Positions 44,449 to 54,618 of a DNA stretch of 59,269 nt are shown piece after piece. Source of the stretch: Bacteroidaceae bacterium (GTDB taxonomy: Bacteria; Bacteroidota; Bacteroidia; Bacteroidales; Barnesiellaceae_A); assembly GCA_017935645.1 (NCBI GenBank), contig JAGBHF010000044.1:1-59269 (forward strand), read 5' to 3'. The notes under the pieces are model-generated. The model did not search any database and was not told where the DNA came from. It saw only the letters and a program-made list of their open reading frames with translations. Within the stretch, counting starts at the first letter, position 1; each line of letters starts with the position of its first letter. The translations under genes were made by a program, and so were the position numbers.

Positions 44449-44457
44449 CATCTTAGT

Positions 44458-44871
44458 ATGAACTTAGACCAAGTACGCATCATCGACTTGCAGACAATAC
44501 GCGACTATCGTGGCAATCTGTCGATAATAGAGAGTGGCACTTCCATTCCCTTCGAGGTGGCACGCACCTATTGGATATATGATGTGCCGGGTGGCGCACA
44601 CCGCACCGGACACGCCTTCCGCACACAACATGAGTTTATAGTAGCCCTATCGGGCAGTTTCGATGTGATACTCGATGACGGCAAGGAACGCAAGCGTTAC
44701 CACCTGTGTCGTTCGCATCACGGATTGTATGTACCCAATATGATATGGCGTGAGTTGGACAATTTTTCGACCAACTCGGTGGCAATGGTGCTGAGTTCGA
44801 CCCTATACGATGCCAACGACTATATAGAAGAGTATACAACCTACTGTCAAGCACTGAAAGATAATGAATAA
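44458..44871 (+). CDS. FdtA/QdtA-like sugar isomerase cupin, divergent copy
   Basis: A 137-residue cupin starting at 44458; the open frame to 44107 lies over the pfkA promoter and coding region. It fits the dTDP-4-oxo-6-deoxyglucose 3,4-ketoisomerase family (YWIYDVPGG, VALSGSFDVILDDG, PNMIWRELDNFS). In the active-site motif GxHAH it reads GHAF: His52 is kept but the second His is Phe54. It shares the whole fold with the next gene, which has both His. It may be an inactive or altered partner, or a different isomerase. It overlaps the next gene by 8 bp. Confidence 0.8.
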   Translation: MNLDQVRIIDLQTIRDYRGNLSIIESGTSIPFEVARTYWIYDVPGGAHRTGHAFRTQHEFIVALSGSFDVILDDGKERKRYHLCRSHHGLYVPNMIWRELDNFSTNSVAMVLSSTLYDANDYIEEYTTYCQALKDNE

Positions 44872-45298
44872 GCCTACACGATATACCGTAGACGAGTGTA
44901 AGGTAATAAACCTTACCAAGTATACTCGACCCAATGGCAACCTGACGGTTGTAGAGAACAATCATATTACACCCTTCAACGTGAAACGTGTATACTACTT
45001 GTATGACGTACCGGCCGGCGCCGAGCGTGGAGGGCACGCACACAAAGAGCTACAACAATTTGTCATTGCTGTCAGTGGCAGTTTCGATGTTGTAATAGAC
45101 GATGGACACGAGCGTCGCAAAGTGTCACTCAACCGTCCATTCAGAGGCTTACATATACGCCAAGGTATATGGCGTGAGCTGGAAAACTTCTCATCGGGTG
45201 CTGTATGCCTTGTGTTGGCATCGGAACACTATGACGAGGAGGACTACATACGCAAATATGACCAATTCGTGGAGTATATAAAGGAGATAGAGCAATGA
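44864..45298 (+). CDS. FdtA/QdtA-like dTDP-sugar 3,4-ketoisomerase
   Basis: A 144-residue cupin paralogous to the preceding gene. The active-site motif is intact as RGGHAH (His58, His60), with YYLYDVPAG and [13 protein letters not shown]. Characterised relatives convert dTDP-4-oxo-6-deoxyglucose into the 3-oxo isomer for amination. The next gene, overlapping by 4 bp, is an aminotransferase of the FdtB class, which would use that product to make a 3-amino-3,6-dideoxyhexose. Whether the final sugar is Fuc3N or Qui3N cannot be told. Confidence 0.85.
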
Positions 45299-46413
45299 AA
45301 ACCTACGACCTGCTATCGCTGCAACAACTCAATGCGCCTTACGCCCACGAACTGAAAGAGGCTGCTTGTCGCGTTATCGACTCGGGATGGTATCTGCGTG
45401 GAACAGAGACCGAGGCCTTTGAGCGCGAAATGGCTGCATACTTGGGTATAAATCAGGTTGTGGGTGTTGCCAACGGATTGGATGCCCTGCGACTTATATT
45501 CAAAGCCTATATTGCATTGGGAAGGCTTCAACCCGGTGATGAGGTTATCGTTCCGGCCAATACCTTTATAGCATCGGTATTGGCTATTACCGATTGCGAC
45601 CTCGTACCCCGCTTTGTTGAGCCATCAATATCGACCCACAACCTCGACACCTCGCTTATCGAGCAAGCTATCACTACTCGCACTCGCGCCATCTTGGTAG
45701 TACATCTATATGGTCGTGCCTGCTGGGATGAACAACTTGTAGCAACAGCTCGCAAGCACAACTTGCTCATTATCGAAGATAATGCCCAAGCATTAGGAGC
45801 ACGCACCGACAACGGGGTACACACCGGTACATTGGGCGATGCGGCAGGAACAAGTTTCTATCCGGGTAAAAATTTGGGAGCATTGGGCGATGCCGGCATG
45901 GTGACTACTCGCGACAATGAATTGGCTCGAATGGTGCGCGCCTTAGGCAACTATGGTGGCAACACCCGATATATATATGAACACCAAGGACTGAACAGTC
46001 GCATAGACGAGATACAAGCTGCCATGTTGCGGGTAAAGTTGCAGTACATCGACAGCGAAAACCAACGTCGCAGCCACATAGCACAGCAATACAACACGTC
46101 GATCGACAACCCATATATCACCCTACCTCAACTGCCCGCACAACCCCACTCGCACGTGTGGCATCAGTATGTAGTATGTACACAGTACCGCGACGCTTTT
46201 ATGCAATACATGCGCAACAACGGTATAGCAACGGCTATTCACTACCCCATACCGCCTCACAAACACGAGGCTTACAAGGCATACAATACTCTATCGTTAC
46301 CACTCACCGAACGGTTGGCCAACGAGGTAGTGAGCCTACCCATAGCTCCATACCTTACAGACGATGATGTTGAATATATTGCTCAAGTAATCAACCGATT
46401 TGAAATAGAATAA
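45295..46413 (+). CDS. DegT/DnrJ/EryC1/StrS-family sugar aminotransferase (FdtB-like)
   Basis: A 372-residue PLP-dependent aminotransferase. [27 protein letters not shown] and [17 protein letters not shown] are signatures; the Lys in the last one forms the PLP aldimine. With an FdtA-like isomerase directly upstream it should aminate C3 of a dTDP-3-keto-6-deoxyhexose. No rmlA/rmlB genes and no N-acetyltransferase gene lie beside it; the O-acetyltransferase at 53333 is a weak candidate for a later step. nadC follows by 29 bp. Confidence 0.88.
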
Positions 46414-47314: not shown

Positions 47315-47352
47315 ACAGAGCTATTCCACTTACGGAGTAGCTCTGCTTTTTT
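47315..47352 (+). terminator. Terminator after nadC
   Basis: CAGAGCTATTCC pairs with CGGAGTAGCTCTG (one bulged base) around ACTTA, then CTTTTTTT. Confidence 0.85.
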
Positions 47353-47456: not shown

Positions 47457-47488
47457 ATTGTAGACTTAAAATTTCAATTTTACCTTTG
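47457..47488 (+). promoter_or_regulatory. Promoter of the activase-TetR operon
   Basis: ATTG (47457-47460), 20 bases, then TACCTTTG (47481-47488). The expected RNA start near 47495 falls directly before the palindrome at 47503-47518. Confidence 0.65.
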
Positions 47489-47492
47489 CGTC

Positions 47493-47518
47493 TGACATTT
47501 GTGTCAAACATGTATGAC
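47493..47518 (+). promoter_or_regulatory. Candidate TetR operator
   Basis: GTCAAACATGTATGAC at 47503-47518 is a 16-bp palindrome with a single mismatched pair. The overlapping TGACA-TTTG-TGTCA (47493-47506) is a second, perfect inverted repeat. Three TGACA/TGTCA half-sites therefore cover the predicted transcription start. TetR proteins typically bind palindromes of this size at such positions, and a TetR gene is in the same operon; binding itself is inference. Confidence 0.55.
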
Positions 47519-47528
47519 AACACTTTAA

Positions 47529-50500
47529 ATGCTACGCTTAGGAATTGATATTGGCTCTACTACAGTAAAGTTTGTTGCTGTAGATATAGATGGTAAAACC
47601 GTTTTTACACGATACGGTAGACATAATACTCAAACATTGGAAGTTGTTACTTCATTTCTCGGTGAATTGGGCAAGGCATACCCCAAAGAGAAGGTATCGG
47701 TAAGAGTGACAGGCTCGGTAGGTATGGGATACTCTGAACGATATGCACTCCCTTTTGTGCAGGAAGTTGTTGCGGCATCCATAGCAATCAGAGAAAAAAA
47801 CATTAAGGCATCTACTATGATAGATATAGGAGGTGAGGATGCTAAAATTGTATTCTTCAAAGAGGGTGTTGCCGAGGATTTGAGAATGAATGGCAATTGT
47901 GCCGGAGGTACGGGTGCATTCATCGATCAAATGGCAATAATCATGGGTGTAGATGTAAATAAGTTGGATGAGCTTGCATTATCGGCCACACAGATATACC
48001 CTATTGCATCTCGATGCGGTGTGTTCTGCAAGACCGATATTCAAAATCTTACAGCTCATAATGTAAGCCGCGAAAATATTGCAGCATCGATTTTTCACGC
48101 CGTAACAGTGCAAACTATTACAACTCTCGCACGAGGCTATGAAATAAAGCCCCCTATTATCTTCTGTGGGGGTCCATTAACTTTCATAACTGCATTACGC
48201 AATGCCTTTATGAACTACTTGTCCTTATCCGACAAGGACATACTTATTCCCGAACATGGCGAGTTACTACCGGCGCTGGGTACGGCATTGGCTAAGGTTG
48301 AAAATGAAAAGTGGCAATCAATTGAGGATATCATTGAACAACTTCAAACAACACCCCAACACCGTAGTAAAGGTAATAATGAACTGAGTGCAATCTTTGA
48401 AAATAGCGAACAATATAATGAGTGGTCAAATCGTATTGCGCAAAATCAAATTCCTAAGGCGGAACTACACAAAGGTTGTCAGAAGGTGTATATCGGTGTT
48501 GATTCAGGGTCAACAACAACAAAAATAGTCGTACTCAATGAGCAGGCCGAATTACTATATACTTATTACAGAAATAATGGAGGAAAGCCTATTGAAACAG
48601 TTATTGAAGGTCTTTCGCAACTGCAAAAAGAGTGTAAAGAAAAAGATGCGACATTATATATTGTGGGTAGCTGTTCAACAGGATATGGCGAGGACTTGAT
48701 TAAGGCGACCTTCAACATGGGGTCGAGTATCGTCGAAACTATTGCACATTACAAGGCCGCACAACACTTCGACCCCAAGGTAAGTTTTATCCTTGATATT
48801 GGCGGACAGGATATGAAAGCCATTTTTGTGAAAGATGGTGTGATAAACCGCATTGAAATAAACGAAGCCTGCTCATCGGGTTGCGGTTCATTTATAGAAA
48901 CATTTGCACAAAGTCATGGCCTGTCGGTTGCAGAATTTGCCCAAAAAGCGTGTCAATCAACCGCTCCTTCACAACTCGGCACACGTTGCACGGTGTTTAT
49001 GAATTCGAGAGTAAAACAGGTATTGAGAGAAGGTGCAACCGTAAACGATATTTCGGCTGGATTGGCCTATTCGGTGATAAAAAATTGTCTTTTCAAAGTA
49101 CTCAAACTTAAAGACACGACCGAACTTGGCAATCACATAGTAGTACAAGGTGGCACAATGCGCAATGATGCCATTGTACGGGCATTGGAGTTATTGTCCC
49201 AAACCGAGGTGTCTCGTAGCAATTATCCTGAACTGATGGGAGCTATGGGATGTGCACTCTATGCCATGGAGCATTCGACAGCTATGACAACACTTGATGA
49301 AATGCTATCAACGGCCACATACACTACACGCACCCTACAGTGTCATGGTTGCGAAAATAACTGCTCTGTTCAACAATACAATTTCGGAAATGGCAGACGT
49401 TACTATTCAGGAAATCGTTGTGAAAAGCATTTTTCTAACAAAGGCAAGTTGAAAGAAAGCTGTCGCAATATGTACGAAGTGAAAAACGATTTACTATTTG
49501 CCAGAGAAAAGAAAATTGCGAATGCTCGATGTACTATCGGCATTCCGCGCATACTGAATATATATGAAGAGTACCCATTCTGGCACAAGCTGTTTACTGA
49601 ATGTGAGATAGATGTTATACTGTCCGCACCATCAAATTTTACTGCCTACGAACAATACTCACGAATGGTAATGTCCGATAATATTTGTTTTCCTGCCAAA
49701 TTAGTTCATAGCCACATTGCATACTTACGCGACAAGGGTGTAGATAGGATTTTTATGCCATTTGTTATATATGAAAAGCAGAGTGATAAAGAGCAGAACA
49801 GCTACAATTGTCCGATTGTTACGGGCTACTCGGCAGTTGTAAAAAGTGTTCAACAATCATCTACACCCATAGACTCTCCTATCATCAGTTTCAAAGATAA
49901 GAAATTACTGTTTAAGCAAATCGAGAAGTATCTGCAATCTTTAAATATCAAACGCAGTGTAATCAAGCAGGCATTTGATAAAGCTGTAGAGGAGCAAGAG
50001 TTGTTCTGCAAAAAGATAGCAACACTAAACGAACAAACACTATCGGCTGCACTACGCAACGGCCAAATGTCAATACTCCTCGCCGGACGACCTTACCACG
50101 CCGACCCTTTAATTCAACATAAGGTATCGAATATGCTTGCCGAGATGGGTATCAATGTACTTACAGACGATGTGGTGCGAGGAATGGACATTGATATCAG
50201 CGACTTGCATTATCTGGAACAATGGTCCTATCCTAATCGAATAATGCAAGCCGCCAAGTGGACTACATTGCAGAGTGAGCTGGTACAATTTGTCGAATTG
50301 ACTTCATTCGGTTGCGGACCCGATGCTTTTATCATTGATGAGGTACGCGATGTGCTGTTACGCCACCACAAGCCTTTCACGTTGCTCAAACTGGACGATA
50401 TAAACAATATAGGATCGATGCGACTTCGTGTGCGTTCGTTGGTTGATAGCCTAAATATGTCAATAAATCACAAGCCCGAAAGAGAAAAACCCATTCCATT

Positions 50501-51740
50501 CCGAACAACCCCTATTTATGACAACGAGTATCGCCATCGTAAAGTTATTATTCCATTCTTTACATCGGCTATATCGCCACTGTTACCATCTATCATGCGC
50601 GTTGCCGGCTATGATGCCGATTGCCTCCCAATTAGCGATGAAGAGTCGGTAAGTTGGGGTCTCAAATACGCCAACAATGAAGTGTGCTATCCGGCAACTC
50701 TTATTATAGGCGATATAATCAAGGCATTCAGGAGTGGTAAATACGACCCTTCCAAGACAGTTGTTGGCATTACACAAACGGGTGGACAATGTCGGGCGTC
50801 AAACTATCTACCAATGCTCAAAAAAGCTTTGACAGATGCCGGTTACGACAATGTACCGGTTATATCGTTGGTCATAGGCTCGGGTATCAAAAACAATCAA
50901 CCTGCATTTCATGTCAATTGGGCAAAAATATTCCCTATTGCACTACGCGCTGTTTTGTATAGCGACTGTATTAATAAGTTCTATCATGCAGCTGTTGTCC
51001 GCGAGAATAAGAGTGGTGTTGCAGCCGAATTGCGCAACGTTTATCTGCAGTTAGGCGCAGATCTAATAGAGCGTGGACGAAGTAACGAACTGTTGAAACA
51101 CTTGGCAATTGCAGCCGAAGAGTTTAATGCGATATGCCATGATATCGAGCTACCCAAAGTGGGTATTGTAGGCGAAATTTACCTCAAGTTCAACTCATTT
51201 GCACAACGAAACATCGTAGATTGGCTCATAGAGCAGCACATAGAGGTTGTACCACCGGTACTAATTGATTTCTTTACACAGGCATTTGTCAATCGTAGAG
51301 TAAAGAACAAAGAGTACATTACAAAACAAGAATTTAGCAATATTGCCATGAGTGGACTCTATCGACTCGTAGACATGGAGATAAAAAAGTTTAATAACAT
51401 AGGTGCTAAATTTTACTATTTCACAGCATTTGGCGACATCTTTCATGAAGCCGAACAAGCCGAAAAAATCATCACACTCAATGCCCAATTCGGCGAAGGT
51501 TGGTTACTACCGGGTGAGATTATCTCTTATGTTGAGAGCGGTGTTAAAAACGTCATCAGCCTACAACCTTTCGGTTGTATTGCCAACCATATTGTTTCAA
51601 AAGGAATAGAAAAGAGGCTGAAAGCCCTCTATTCTGAGTTAAAATTACTATCTTTGGACTTTGATAGCAGTGTTAGCGATGTGAACATCAAAAATAGGCT
51701 ACTGCTGTTTATCGACAATGTGAATGAATACAAACGCTAA
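47529..51740 (+). CDS. Giant acyl-CoA dehydratase activase / HgdB-like fusion protein
   Basis: A 1403-residue cytosolic protein. It contains two actin-fold activase modules of the HgdC/BadF type: residues 1-270 (DIGSTT at 6-11; Cys124 and Cys163) and residues 320-595 (DSGSTTTK from 325; Cys448 and Cys487). Both keep the 39-residue spacing of the cysteines that in HgdC hold a [4Fe-4S] cluster across the dimer. Then come a Cys cluster (C605, C608, C612), a DUF2229-like region from about 665 (GIPRILNIYEEYPFW, CFPAKLVHSHI), an HgdB/D-like region from about 845 (LLAGRPYHADP), and a GGQCRASNYLP motif near 1088. It could be a self-contained activator-reductase for a difficult reduction. Its substrate is unknown. 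No separate dehydratase subunits are nearby. Confidence 0.85.
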   Translation: MLRLGIDIGSTTVKFVAVDIDGKTVFTRYGRHNTQTLEVVTSFLGELGKAYPKEKVSVRVTGSVGMGYSERYALPFVQEVVAASIAIREKNIKASTMIDIGGEDAKIVFFKEGVAEDLRMNGNCAGGTGAFIDQMAIIMGVDVNKLDELALSATQIYPIASRCGVFCKTDIQNLTAHNVSRENIAASIFHAVTVQTITTLARGYEIKPPIIFCGGPLTFITALRNAFMNYLSLSDKDILIPEHGELLPALGTALAKVENEKWQSIEDIIEQLQTTPQHRSKGNNELSAIFENSEQYNEWSNRIAQNQIPKAELHKGCQKVYIGVDSGSTTTKIVVLNEQAELLYTYYRNNGGKPIETVIEGLSQLQKECKEKDATLYIVGSCSTGYGEDLIKATFNMGSSIVETIAHYKAAQHFDPKVSFILDIGGQDMKAIFVKDGVINRIEINEACSSGCGSFIETFAQSHGLSVAEFAQKACQSTAPSQLGTRCTVFMNSRVKQVLREGATVNDISAGLAYSVIKNCLFKVLKLKDTTELGNHIVVQGGTMRNDAIVRALELLSQTEVSRSNYPELMGAMGCALYAMEHSTAMTTLDEMLSTATYTTRTLQCHGCENNCSVQQYNFGNGRRYYSGNRCEKHFSNKGKLKESCRNMYEVKNDLLFAREKKIANARCTIGIPRILNIYEEYPFWHKLFTECEIDVILSAPSNFTAYEQYSRMVMSDNICFPAKLVHSHIAYLRDKGVDRIFMPFVIYEKQSDKEQNSYNCPIVTGYSAVVKSVQQSSTPIDSPIISFKDKKLLFKQIEKYLQSLNIKRSVIKQAFDKAVEEQELFCKKIATLNEQTLSAALRNGQMSILLAGRPYHADPLIQHKVSNMLAEMGINVLTDDVVRGMDIDISDLHYLEQWSYPNRIMQAAKWTTLQSELVQFVELTSFGCGPDAFIIDEVRDVLLRHHKPFTLLKLDDINNIGSMRLRVRSLVDSLNMSINHKPEREKPIPFRTTPIYDNEYRHRKVIIPFFTSAISPLLPSIMRVAGYDADCLPISDEESVSWGLKYANNEVCYPATLIIGDIIKAFRSGKYDPSKTVVGITQTGGQCRASNYLPMLKKALTDAGYDNVPVISLVIGSGIKNNQPAFHVNWAKIFPIALRAVLYSDCINKFYHAAVVRENKSGVAAELRNVYLQLGADLIERGRSNELLKHLAIAAEEFNAICHDIELPKVGIVGEIYLKFNSFAQRNIVDWLIEQHIEVVPPVLIDFFTQAFVNRRVKNKEYITKQEFSNIAMSGLYRLVDMEIKKFNNIGAKFYYFTAFGDIFHEAEQAEKIITLNAQFGEGWLLPGEIISYVESGVKNVISLQPFGCIANHIVSKGIEKRLKALYSELKLLSLDFDSSVSDVNIKNRLLLFIDNVNEYKR

Positions 51741-51752
51741 TAAAACACATAG

Positions 51753-52349
51753 ATGGAAAATAGGATAATCAAGGCTGCTCGAGAAGTTTTTATTGACAAA
51801 GGCTTCGCCGAAACAAGCATGAGCGAAATTGCTACCGTTGTCGGAATAAATCGCCCCGCTCTGCACTACTATTTTCGTACCAAAGACAAGATGTTTCAGG
51901 CAGTGTTTGGCGATATTGTACAGTCGATTGTACCTGCGGTATTCGACAATCTTATGCACCGAGAACTACCCCTATCGGAACGTGTAGAACGCATTGTTGA
52001 TGCCTACATAAGCCTGTTCACAGAAAATCCGCGTTTGCCAATGTTTATGATGCGTGAACTAAATCGCGACCCCGAACTACTTATAAACACCATTCGCAGT
52101 CTTAATGTAATAGATACAATGAAGGAGGCCTTTACTTCATTGCAAGAAGAAATGAACGAAGGCAAATTGAAAAATATTCCACTTCAATTTCTATTCTATA
52201 ACATGTATGGGATGTTAATAATCCCATTTTTGACAAAAGACGCCGTACAAAAACTCTATACACAAAGCGAAGAAGAGTTTCTTACCTATATTGCCATATG
52301 GAAAAATGTCGTAGTATCTCAAATATGTAACCTACTCGAGGTGCAATAA
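51753..52349 (+). CDS. TetR-family transcriptional regulator
   Basis: A 198-residue regulator with the TetR N-terminal DNA-binding domain (residues about 8-55: IDKGFAETSMSEIATVVG, INRPALHYYFRTKDKMF, the LHYYF signature) and a helical ligand-binding domain. It starts 12 bp after the activase stop, so it is in that operon, and a palindrome at the operon promoter suggests autoregulation. The ligand is unknown; a CoA thioester or related acid would fit the upstream gene (inference). Confidence 0.9.
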   Translation: MENRIIKAAREVFIDKGFAETSMSEIATVVGINRPALHYYFRTKDKMFQAVFGDIVQSIVPAVFDNLMHRELPLSERVERIVDAYISLFTENPRLPMFMMRELNRDPELLINTIRSLNVIDTMKEAFTSLQEEMNEGKLKNIPLQFLFYNMYGMLIIPFLTKDAVQKLYTQSEEEFLTYIAIWKNVVVSQICNLLEVQ

Positions 52350-52351
52350 AT

Positions 52352-53308
52352 ATGCAACGACTGATTTGCTCGCTTTTACTCACTTTAGCATCGTTGACAA
52401 CTATGGCTCAAAGCGAATATCCCATTCATGAGGATTTTCGTTCGGCATATCGCATCACCGCACCCCTCGGACGCGGTGTATTGAGCATAGGCAACGCTTT
52501 CCTATCGGTGATGCCAAAGGACATGCACTCCGATAAAGAACTGACAATAAAGAAAATAAAAATCACCTCAACAACCGACGGCAAGGAGTTTGGTGCATGG
52601 GTAATTACGCCCCAAGAGAGTGACGCGCCACACCCTGCAATACTCTTTGTACACGGCGGAGGTTTCGTATTCAAGGGCGCACCTTACCACTACGACCTTG
52701 CCAAAGAGTATGCCCGACGCACTCATTCGGTAGTCGTTATGGTCGATTATCGCACGGCACACAACAACCCCTATGGCACCTCGCTGCAAGATTGCATGGA
52801 TGCGTGGCAGTGGATGATAAACAGTGCCCAAGACCTCGGCATCGACATTACACGAACAGCCATTGTAGGCGACTCGGCAGGCGGGTTTATTGCCATTAAG
52901 ACGGTACTTGGGAGCAATATTCGCCCCTCGAAGTTGATGCTTATTTATCCCGTTATCGATTGCACGATGCGCACCGAAAGCATGGCAAAGTTTGACGACA
53001 CACCTGTGTGGAACAGCAAGTTAAACAAGAAGATGTGGGAGTACTACCTGCAAGGCGAAACGGAAAAGTCGCTACTTGACCTTACCCCAAATGAGTTGCA
53101 AATGATGCCTACCACCTATGTCGAAACAGCTGAGTTTGACTGCTTGCGTGACGAGGGGTATGAGTTTGCGATAATGTTGCAAGATGTCGGGGTGACAACC
53201 ACACTCAGCCCTACCCTGGGTACTATGCACGGCTTTGATATGGCACAGCGTAGCGAAATAACCCAACGCCAAATCACCGAACGATGCAAGTGGCTCGGGG
53301 AGTGGTAG
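52352..53308 (+). CDS. Secreted alpha/beta hydrolase (hormone-sensitive-lipase type)
   Basis: A 318-residue esterase-like protein with a signal peptide (MQRLICSLLLTLASLTTMAQ). The oxyanion HGGG motif (FVHGGGFVF), nucleophile GDSAGG, then Asp in AEFDCLRDEG and His in TMHGFDM complete the triad of the HSL family. It acts in the periplasm or outside on short acyl esters. The start is 2 bp after the TetR stop, so it is coupled to the regulator and may be part of the same regulon. Confidence 0.88.
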   Translation: MQRLICSLLLTLASLTTMAQSEYPIHEDFRSAYRITAPLGRGVLSIGNAFLSVMPKDMHSDKELTIKKIKITSTTDGKEFGAWVITPQESDAPHPAILFVHGGGFVFKGAPYHYDLAKEYARRTHSVVVMVDYRTAHNNPYGTSLQDCMDAWQWMINSAQDLGIDITRTAIVGDSAGGFIAIKTVLGSNIRPSKLMLIYPVIDCTMRTESMAKFDDTPVWNSKLNKKMWEYYLQGETEKSLLDLTPNELQMMPTTYVETAEFDCLRDEGYEFAIMLQDVGVTTTLSPTLGTMHGFDMAQRSEITQRQITERCKWLGEW

Positions 53309-53332: not shown

Positions 53333-53926
53333 ATGACCGAAAAAGAAAAGATGTTGCGTCAGATGTTATATGATGCAAACAACGATACAAACCTTATCGA
53401 GGAACGCAAGATAGCGAAAGACCTCTGTTATGATTTCAACCGATTACGCCCTTCGGATGTTGTCGAGCAACAGAAAATTATGCGTCAGTTGTTGGGCAAG
53501 ACAGTAGGCGATAGTTTCTGCATTGTTGCACCTTTTTGGTGTGACTACGGCTACAATATCGAGATTGGTGAGAACTTTTTTGCCAACCACAATACGGTAA
53601 TTCTCGACGGAGCGAAGGTAAAGTTCGGCAATAATGTCTTTATTGCCCCAAACTGCGGTTTTCACACCGCAGGACACCCCATCGATGCCGAGCGAAGGAA
53701 TCAAGGATTGGAGTATGCCTATCCCATCACTGTGGGCGATAATGTGTGGATAGGTGCAGGTGTGCAGGTTATGCCGGGTGTAACCATCGGCTCGAATGTC
53801 GTAATCGGCGGAGGCTCGGTGGTGGTAAAAGACATACCATCGAACGTAGTGGCGGTAGGCAACCCCTGCCGTGTAGTGCGCTCAATCACCGATGAGGATA
53901 AACTCAAGTCGTGGGATAGGAAATAG
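53333..53926 (+). CDS. Sugar O-acetyltransferase (Maa/LacA-like)
   Basis: A 197-residue left-handed beta-helix acetyltransferase. The N-terminal helical cap (MTEKEKMLRQMLYDANND) is that of maltose/galactoside acetyltransferases; FHTAGHPIDAERR holds the catalytic His, and the hexapeptide repeats run from about residue 125 (VGDNVWIGAGVQVMPGVTIG). It transfers acetyl from acetyl-CoA to a sugar hydroxyl. 24 bp separate it from the hydrolase gene. Confidence 0.9.
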   Translation: MTEKEKMLRQMLYDANNDTNLIEERKIAKDLCYDFNRLRPSDVVEQQKIMRQLLGKTVGDSFCIVAPFWCDYGYNIEIGENFFANHNTVILDGAKVKFGNNVFIAPNCGFHTAGHPIDAERRNQGLEYAYPITVGDNVWIGAGVQVMPGVTIGSNVVIGGGSVVVKDIPSNVVAVGNPCRVVRSITDEDKLKSWDRK

Positions 53927-53970: not shown

Positions 53971-54618
53971 ATGAAAAAGATAGTGATTGTGGATGGCGGT
54001 CCACGAAGGAATATGAATACAGCACAGCTGCTGCAACGATTGGCAGAGGGTGCGATGTCGGTCGGTGGTGATATTGAAGTCAAGACCGTGCGCCTATACG
54101 AACTTGACTTCAAGGGTTGTATGTCGTGTATGGCTTGCAAACTCAAAGGCAAGGCTTCGAATATCTGTCGCTACAAGGATGCACTGACACCCCTTTTGGA
54201 AGAGATTGCCCAAGCAGATGGTTTGGTGCTTGGCTCGCCTATCTACTTCGGCGAAGTAACTGGGCTAATGCGAGCCTTCATGGAGCGACTGTCGTTCCCA
54301 TGGCTATCATATAACGATTACAGCCTGACTGCACCCAAGCGCATGCCTGTGGTGCTTGTTGAGACAATGAACGGCACACCCGAACGCAACAATAGCAACC
54401 ATTTCGGCACGATGGAGTGGTGTATTACAACGGCACTCGGCACGCCCGAGCGCATCATCGGCTATAACACTTGTCAGGTAGCGAAATATGACAAATACGA
54501 ACTTGGCAGCTTCTCGGAAGAGGCAAAGCATGCATGGCGCGACGCCCATTGGGAGGAAGACTTACAAAAGGCATTCGATACGGGTCGTAAGATGGTAGAA
54601 GCACAAATGGTTGTGTAA
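53971..54618 (+). CDS. Flavodoxin-fold iron-sulfur flavoprotein / NADPH-dependent reductase
   Basis: A 215-residue protein with the flavodoxin-like N-terminus (IVIVDGGPRRNMNTAQLLQ), a FKGCMSCMACK segment giving C-x2-C-x2-C and another Cys nine residues on, and LGSPIYFGEVTG for FMN binding. The cysteine set resembles iron-sulfur flavoproteins (Isf), whose spacing is usually shorter. It may reduce quinones or act as an electron carrier. It lies 44 bp after the acetyltransferase gene and is the last gene before a tRNA on the other strand. Confidence 0.8.
   Translation: MKKIVIVDGGPRRNMNTAQLLQRLAEGAMSVGGDIEVKTVRLYELDFKGCMSCMACKLKGKASNICRYKDALTPLLEEIAQADGLVLGSPIYFGEVTGLMRAFMERLSFPWLSYNDYSLTAPKRMPVVLVETMNGTPERNNSNHFGTMEWCITTALGTPERIIGYNTCQVAKYDKYELGSFSEEAKHAWRDAHWEEDLQKAFDTGRKMVEAQMVV

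Follow-up and report, generated by a model that had tools for sequence, protein, structure and literature searches.

The window, by which we mean the whole 59,269-nucleotide stretch of DNA analysed here, carries a gene whose 1,403-residue product is very probably a single-gene PlsA-type plasmalogen synthase; it is followed by the gene of a TetR-family regulator and preceded by a candidate operator that many gut-dwelling anaerobic Bacteroidales share. We put the probability of the model as a whole, in which a one-chain PlsA would make vinyl ethers and TetR would repress the plsA-tetR unit, including its own gene, at that operator, at about 75%. The enzyme is a member of an already known type and brings no new chemistry; what is new is a plsA-tetR unit of a strict anaerobe with a defined operator. 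The features of the locus are as follows.

47316-47345, forward strand: intrinsic terminator downstream of nadC (quinolinate phosphoribosyltransferase), with a 12-bp stem and a T-run (one found, 0.1 expected)
47458-47488, forward strand: Bacteroidales-type promoter, with TTG at 47458-47460, a 20-nt spacer, and the -7 box TACCTTTG at 47481-47488
47491-47508: conserved candidate operator TCTGACATTTGTGTCAAA, read as TCTGACA-TTTG-TGTCAAA, matching the consensus TYTGACA-N4-TGTCARA at 14 of 14 positions
47502-47519: palindrome TGTCAAACATGTATGACA of an earlier note on this DNA; an additional, weaker half-site forms its right arm (47515-47519)
47529-51740, forward strand: plsA-type gene, an intact ORF of 4,212 bp encoding 1,403 aa
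Residues 1 to ~260 of the plsA product: activase 1 (BcrAD_BadFG)
Residues 320-582: activase 2 (BcrAD_BadFG)
Residues 605-631: four-Cys site, C605-x2-C608-x3-C612-x18-C631
Residues 669 to ~930: DUF2229/reductase 1 (DUF2229 at 669-883)
Residues ~1000-1403: reductase 2 (HgdB-like), from fold comparison
51753-52349, forward strand: tetR-family regulator gene (198 aa, PF00440), candidate repressor of plsA-tetR
52352-53308, forward strand: esterase gene, from profile matches
53333-53926, forward strand: maltose/galactoside-type acetyltransferase gene, from profile matches
53971-54618, forward strand: FMN-reductase-like flavoprotein gene, from profile matches

The fused enzyme and its relatives

Pfam assigned two BcrAD_BadFG domains and a DUF2229 region (1.3e-71) to the 1,403-aa chain, NCBIfam assigned two "acyl-CoA dehydratase activase" domains, and the TIGR00241 activase model matched with 242 bits. 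The cysteines of both activase modules lie 39 residues apart (C124/C163 and C448/C487). Together with the four-Cys site (C605/C608/C612/C631) and three cysteines in each reductase half (C720/C761/C929 and C1053/C1088/C1350), they form a set of 14 that is invariant in an alignment of 96 homologues, of which 75 are close and from Bacteroidales, 15 are distant (~25% identical), and 6 come from other phyla. The catalytic [4Fe-4S] cluster of BzdO has a three-Cys ligation by Cys95, 128, and 380 (PMC11971306), with spacings of 33 and 252, compared with 35 and 262 in the second reductase half here. That half is HgdB-like clearly by modelled fold and weakly by sequence: at E ≤ 0.01 the window protein had no HGD-D (PF06050) match, homologues had weak ones (5 of 15, best 3.5e-4), and a sequence search of the reductase half against the PDB gave no match. 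An AlphaFold2 model of residues 588-1403 had moderate confidence (pLDDT 74), and its top 13 PDB fold matches were all chains of 2-hydroxyisocaproyl-CoA dehydratase, double-cubane protein, or benzoyl-CoA reductase. As judged from sequence and model, the four components of a machine of the benzoyl-CoA reductase type are thus all contained in one chain. Moreover, the own genome (2.19 Mb, 96 contigs) has one activase gene and one DUF2229 gene, and they are the same gene; the chain must therefore serve itself rather than activate another dehydratase.

The assignment to PlsA follows from the architecture, the length, the 38% identity over 99% of the length to the Listeria protein, and the 14 invariant cysteines. 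PlsA proteins have a pair of activation domains and a pair of reduction domains, in a chain of about 1,400 aa or in two genes, and both pairs are present here. Single-gene PlsA of Enterococcus faecalis, Lactococcus cremoris, and Bifidobacterium longum (4,248, 4,311, and 4,920 bp) has the domain order Act1-Act2-Red1-Red2 and led to plasmalogens on expression in E. coli, as did PlsA/PlsR of Clostridium perfringens, which belongs to the same family (PMC12838417). The window protein has in common with the three single-gene enzymes the ~1,400-aa chain, the domain order, and the cluster cysteines; it differs in its strictly anaerobic Bacteroidales host, in a tetR gene downstream within the plsA unit with a conserved operator, and in that its activity is predicted. 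The PlsA-PlsR operon of C. perfringens (CPE1195/1194) has the same modules and the same proposed chemistry, in two proteins and with no TetR reported, whereas the window locus has one chain and a tetR gene. The likeness to E. faecalis PlsA is one of domains and length and that to C. perfringens one of modules, and full-length similarity to a plasmalogen producer's protein comes from Listeria monocytogenes (38.5% identity over 99% of length), a genus for which pls orthologues and plasmalogens have been noted (PMC9702350). Identities to the Collinsella, Acetoanaerobium, Haliovirga, and Fusobacterium versions were 34-38%, the Fusobacterium one being split across two genes. Pls homologues occur in about 15% of sequenced Bacteroidota (PMC10191378), and PE plasmalogens have been reported in Bacteroides thetaiotaomicron and not in B. 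ovatus, B. fragilis, or B. vulgatus (PMC10056535); our literature search on dimethyl acetals of Bacteroidales yielded nothing useful. The earlier note, which had read the locus from its letters, was right about the single chain, its two activase modules with 39-residue Cys spacing, the Cys-rich site, and the DUF2229-like and HgdB-like regions. Its statement that such fusions have no known substrate is overtaken by the one-chain enzymes that make plasmalogens in E. coli.

In the mechanism that we propose, the two activase modules would act as a pseudo-heterodimer with one bridging [4Fe-4S] cluster on C124, C163, C448, and C487, and ATP hydrolysis there would push electrons of very low potential to the two reductase halves, perhaps via a cluster on C605/608/612/631. 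Each half would carry a cluster at its three-Cys site (C720/761/929 and C1053/1088/1350); all of these cluster types are presumed from the sequence. At the sn-1 position of a membrane glycerophospholipid, the ester would then be reduced and dehydrated to the vinyl ether without oxygen, with both the lipid substrate and this product being putative.

The product could instead be the saturated alkyl ether, if the protein were a glycerol ester reductase of the Ger type. Ger belongs to the same family, has a PlsA-like architecture, and makes ether lipids from esters, as proposed here, but its products are saturated alkyl ethers at sn-1 and sn-2 rather than an sn-1 vinyl ether. Sequence gives no rule or diagnostic motif that separates PlsA from Ger (PMC13274423), and two-activation-domain homologues of PlsA occur in some organisms that produce alkyl ethers only (PMC13274423, PMC8788747). 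Against Ger, single-gene PlsA with two activation domains yielded plasmalogens in all three species tested, the window protein falls among the Listeria, Collinsella, and Fusobacterium proteins (37%), outside which a 25% Bacteroidales subfamily lies, and vinyl ethers are known from a Bacteroides species (PMC10056535). We therefore consider a Ger-type enzyme unlikely and the vinyl-ether-forming PlsA the better reading. The outlying subfamily (L107-L121) is a second Bacteroidales form of the giant fusion, 25% identical both to the window protein and to Listeria PlsA; it keeps the 14 cysteines, lacks C452, tetR, and the operator, and may make alkyl ethers or have another activity.

The candidate operator and its regulator

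The tetR gene starts 12 nt past the plsA stop in the ORF list of the window, and a strong predicted terminator sets plsA apart from the upstream nadC. The promoter fits the general Bacteroidales consensus of a TTG and a -7 box. The candidate operator lies directly 3' of the -7 box TACCTTTG and overlaps the expected transcription start. In 25 of 37 non-redundant homologous loci, a -7 box motif, TANNTTTG, starts 10 bp ahead of the operator; across these 37, seven letters of the operator core do not vary and most flanking columns are near background. Both operator arms are kept between the window and its sister locus L033 despite a different spacer.

A palindrome in one sequence is near chance, since perfect 5-N4-5 arms arose in 35% of shuffles of the plsA intergenic region, and the evidence that one matters comes solely from relatives. 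The earlier note had placed a palindromic operator at the transcription start, pointing to a 16-bp palindrome and a 14-bp inverted repeat. Both exist, the former (GTCAAACATGTATGAC, 47503-47518) with one mismatched pair and the latter (TGACATTTGTGTCA) at 47493-47506, and an operator at the start held up. The 16-bp palindrome did not: it overlaps the conserved site, with which it has one half-site in common, and consists of the operator's right half plus a weaker half-site 13 bp downstream. We rejected it as the operator because the columns are near background except in 47491-47509 and in the half-site offset by 13 bp; what relatives conserve is the overlapping 18-bp site. The columns of the third half-site, which was spotted by eye first and then tested by shuffling, gave 147 matches vs. 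68.2 ± 6.9 in shuffles. At two loci where tetR precedes plsA (L020 and L137), half-sites recur three to four times at a 13-bp period in the tetR-plsA promoter, as if several dimers bound there cooperatively.

The operator, scored at 12 or more of 14 positions, was present at all 38 loci with tetR downstream, 16 of them from the TetR search and 22, the window included, from the enzyme search (22 of 22). It occurred at 2 of 41 loci without tetR, both times in degenerate form (of these 41, 15 belong to the distant subfamily and 6 to other phyla), and in 0.3% of shuffled regions. Where tetR lies upstream, the operator of L020 and L137 stands in front of tetR, which is the start of the unit, and the canonical operator was not found at the other 12 of these 14 loci; several have other palindromes near -7 boxes, such as TTTAATA-N4-TATTAAA, which suggests that the operator changed along with the regulator. 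On the PlsA tree, about 12 independent pairs differ in TetR; the operator differs in the same direction in about 6 and in the opposite direction in none (sign test, median p 0.03). With the tetR-upstream loci set aside, the figure is 5-6 of 7 (median p 0.06). The pattern thus points to a cognate operator at the promoter that is conserved with its regulator, kept wherever tetR is downstream and lost with tetR. It supports the earlier note's reading of a TetR-controlled unit with tetR after the fusion.

The TetR protein has the family's TetR_N helix-turn-helix (PF00440, 2.5e-16, 59.6 bits) and an all-helical ligand domain; its model (pLDDT 93) has a TetR fold, with 313 PDB matches at E ≤ 0.001. 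The recognition region (residues 31-51) is 95% identical between homologues, vs. 43% in the ligand domain. The exact operator occurs once in the 2.19-Mb genome, at plsA, and the single one-mismatch site lies inside a secDF-like coding sequence; we therefore rejected a wider TetR regulon. Taken together, the co-occurrence of operator and tetR, the single genome site, and the conserved helix-turn-helix region support a dedicated local autoregulator of plsA-tetR. A TetR dimer would sit on TCTGACATTTGTGTCAAA over the transcription start and repress its own unit, and an inducing ligand, probably lipid-related, would lift the repression; we infer repression rather than activation from the operator's position. 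QacR, FadR, and RutR likewise combine a helix-turn-helix fold, a palindromic operator over the promoter, and autoregulation, but the half-sites of the plsA-tetR operator recur at a 13-bp period (in L020 and L137, three to four times).

The half-site TGACA/TGTCA is short, and another regulator might bind the conserved palindrome while TetR acts elsewhere or as an activator. We regard this as improbable: gains and losses of operator and tetR coincide, the operator stands at the start of the unit even with tetR upstream, the genome has no second exact site and its one near match is within a gene, and a site on top of the start point is what one would expect of a repressor rather than an activator.

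The proposed autorepression by TetR raises the matter of its signal. The fold neighbours of TetR (RutR, FadR, RefZ, and EthR2) pointed to no single class of ligand; a lipid or acyl compound is our guess. Goldfine raised O2 sensing as a possible role of the TetR proteins that adjoin pls genes in facultative anaerobes, and described strict anaerobes as having no such TetR (PMC9702350). E. faecalis has a TetR-family gene (EF1326) adjoining its PlsA gene (EF1327), as tetR does here, and EF1326 has been proposed as potentially O2-sensing; the Bacteroidales TetR has no conserved cysteine, which makes sensing through a thiol or an Fe-S cluster unlikely. Its sole cysteine, C192, is not conserved in 17 homologues, and we dropped a Cys-based O2 or redox sensor. 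Once the TetR-anchored loci are subtracted, so that tetR plays no part in the selection, 59 close homologues from Bacteroidales remain; among them, tetR adjoins in 36, is no neighbour in 20, and was left uncalled in 3. Because of these 36, and because a TetR-like gene lies directly upstream of the plsA homologue of the anaerobe Collinsella, gene order contradicts the published absence of pls-associated TetR from strict anaerobes. No homology of the Collinsella TetR to the window TetR was detected. As the 20 homologues with no tetR neighbour show, the enzyme does not depend on the switch. Our literature search for a regulator of plasmalogen synthase returned nothing useful.

Neighbours, history, and the lipid substrate

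The gaps between the genes downstream of plsA are 2-44 nt in the own genome, and the esterase, acetyltransferase, and flavoprotein genes are possibly read through from plsA-tetR here. The neighbours of plsA-tetR differ in every genome checked, and sister L033, whose PlsA is 96% identical, keeps the esterase only. We set aside the three genes as pathway clues, as they were not found beside plsA-tetR elsewhere, and with them the earlier proposal that they reveal a pathway sensing a small acid or CoA ester. An enzyme acting on a soluble acyl-CoA or small molecule, in the manner of HgdCAB or the double-cubane protein and with these genes in its pathway, would fit the close spacing, the activase modules (nearest in the PDB to MbdQ, HgdC, and HadI), and a reductase half that folds like HadBC, DCCP, and BzdNO; we find it very improbable, because the neighbours vary even in L033, the whole-chain relatives of known activity are plasmalogen makers, and a double-cubane cluster needs six cysteines where each reductase half has three. 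HgdC/HgdAB, HadI/HadBC, benzoyl-CoA reductase (class I), and DCCP do resemble the window protein in the activase bridging cluster (cysteines 39 apart) and the three-Cys reductase folds; they are, however, made of separate subunits, with CoA thioesters or small molecules as substrates, whereas here there is one chain. A 2-hydroxyacyl-CoA dehydratase (HgdCAB) proper was rejected on the fused chain and the missing PF06050, with the activase model matching, and a double-cubane cluster protein on its six ligands in one subunit against three invariant cysteines per half.

Elsewhere in the window, judged from translations alone, 44456-46413 holds a tandem pair of mutually similar cupin-type sugar isomerase-like genes and then a DegT-type aminotransferase, a gene order that resembles dTDP-sugar pathways. 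At the contig end (56767-59055), again from translations alone, lies an adjoining pair of mutually similar membrane acyltransferase-like ORFs.

PlsA and TetR travel together, as their identities correlate across loci (r = 0.94 over 52 loci). The window pair is closest to copies from Rikenellaceae (66-70% identity, vs. 52-54% to those of its own genus, G021 and G135); plsA-tetR therefore probably moved between lineages as one unit. In Bacteroides faecis MAJ27 (L040, 3761-7984), plsA is broken into three frames, and tetR and the operator look intact.

PS decarboxylase (PF02666) was not found in the own genome nor in 7 of 8 congeners, one of which (G135) is 99% complete and carries plsA; it was present in 12 of 12 other Bacteroidales genomes checked. 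The sole CDP-alcohol transferase match found was weak (L144). The usual PE route may have been lost in the genus, so that the customary PE substrate would be lacking. Tentatively, and as less likely than not, we suggest that strict anaerobes of the Bacteroidales may set the vinyl-ether content of their membranes through a dedicated, horizontally mobile plsA-tetR cassette, with a repressor responding to a membrane-lipid signal (not a Cys-based O2 sensor) and a 13-bp-repeat operator; in this genus, the substrate would be a phospholipid other than PE made by PS decarboxylase.

Meaning for plasmalogen biology

Plasmalogens of gut anaerobes matter for host health, and when and why bacteria make them has been little explained; in the literature searched, we found no study of plasmalogen regulation in gut anaerobes. 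The locus gives a likely function to a family labelled "2-hydroxyacyl-CoA dehydratase activase" in databases, and it would correct the published limit of TetR control of pls genes to facultative anaerobes. A one-gene enzyme with a one-site repressor would be a direct handle, with tetR deletion to force vinyl-ether lipids and plsA deletion to abolish them, and the short, defined operator would allow ligands to be screened against TetR. In the strict anaerobes that carry the pair, plasmalogen production appears to be switched on and off.
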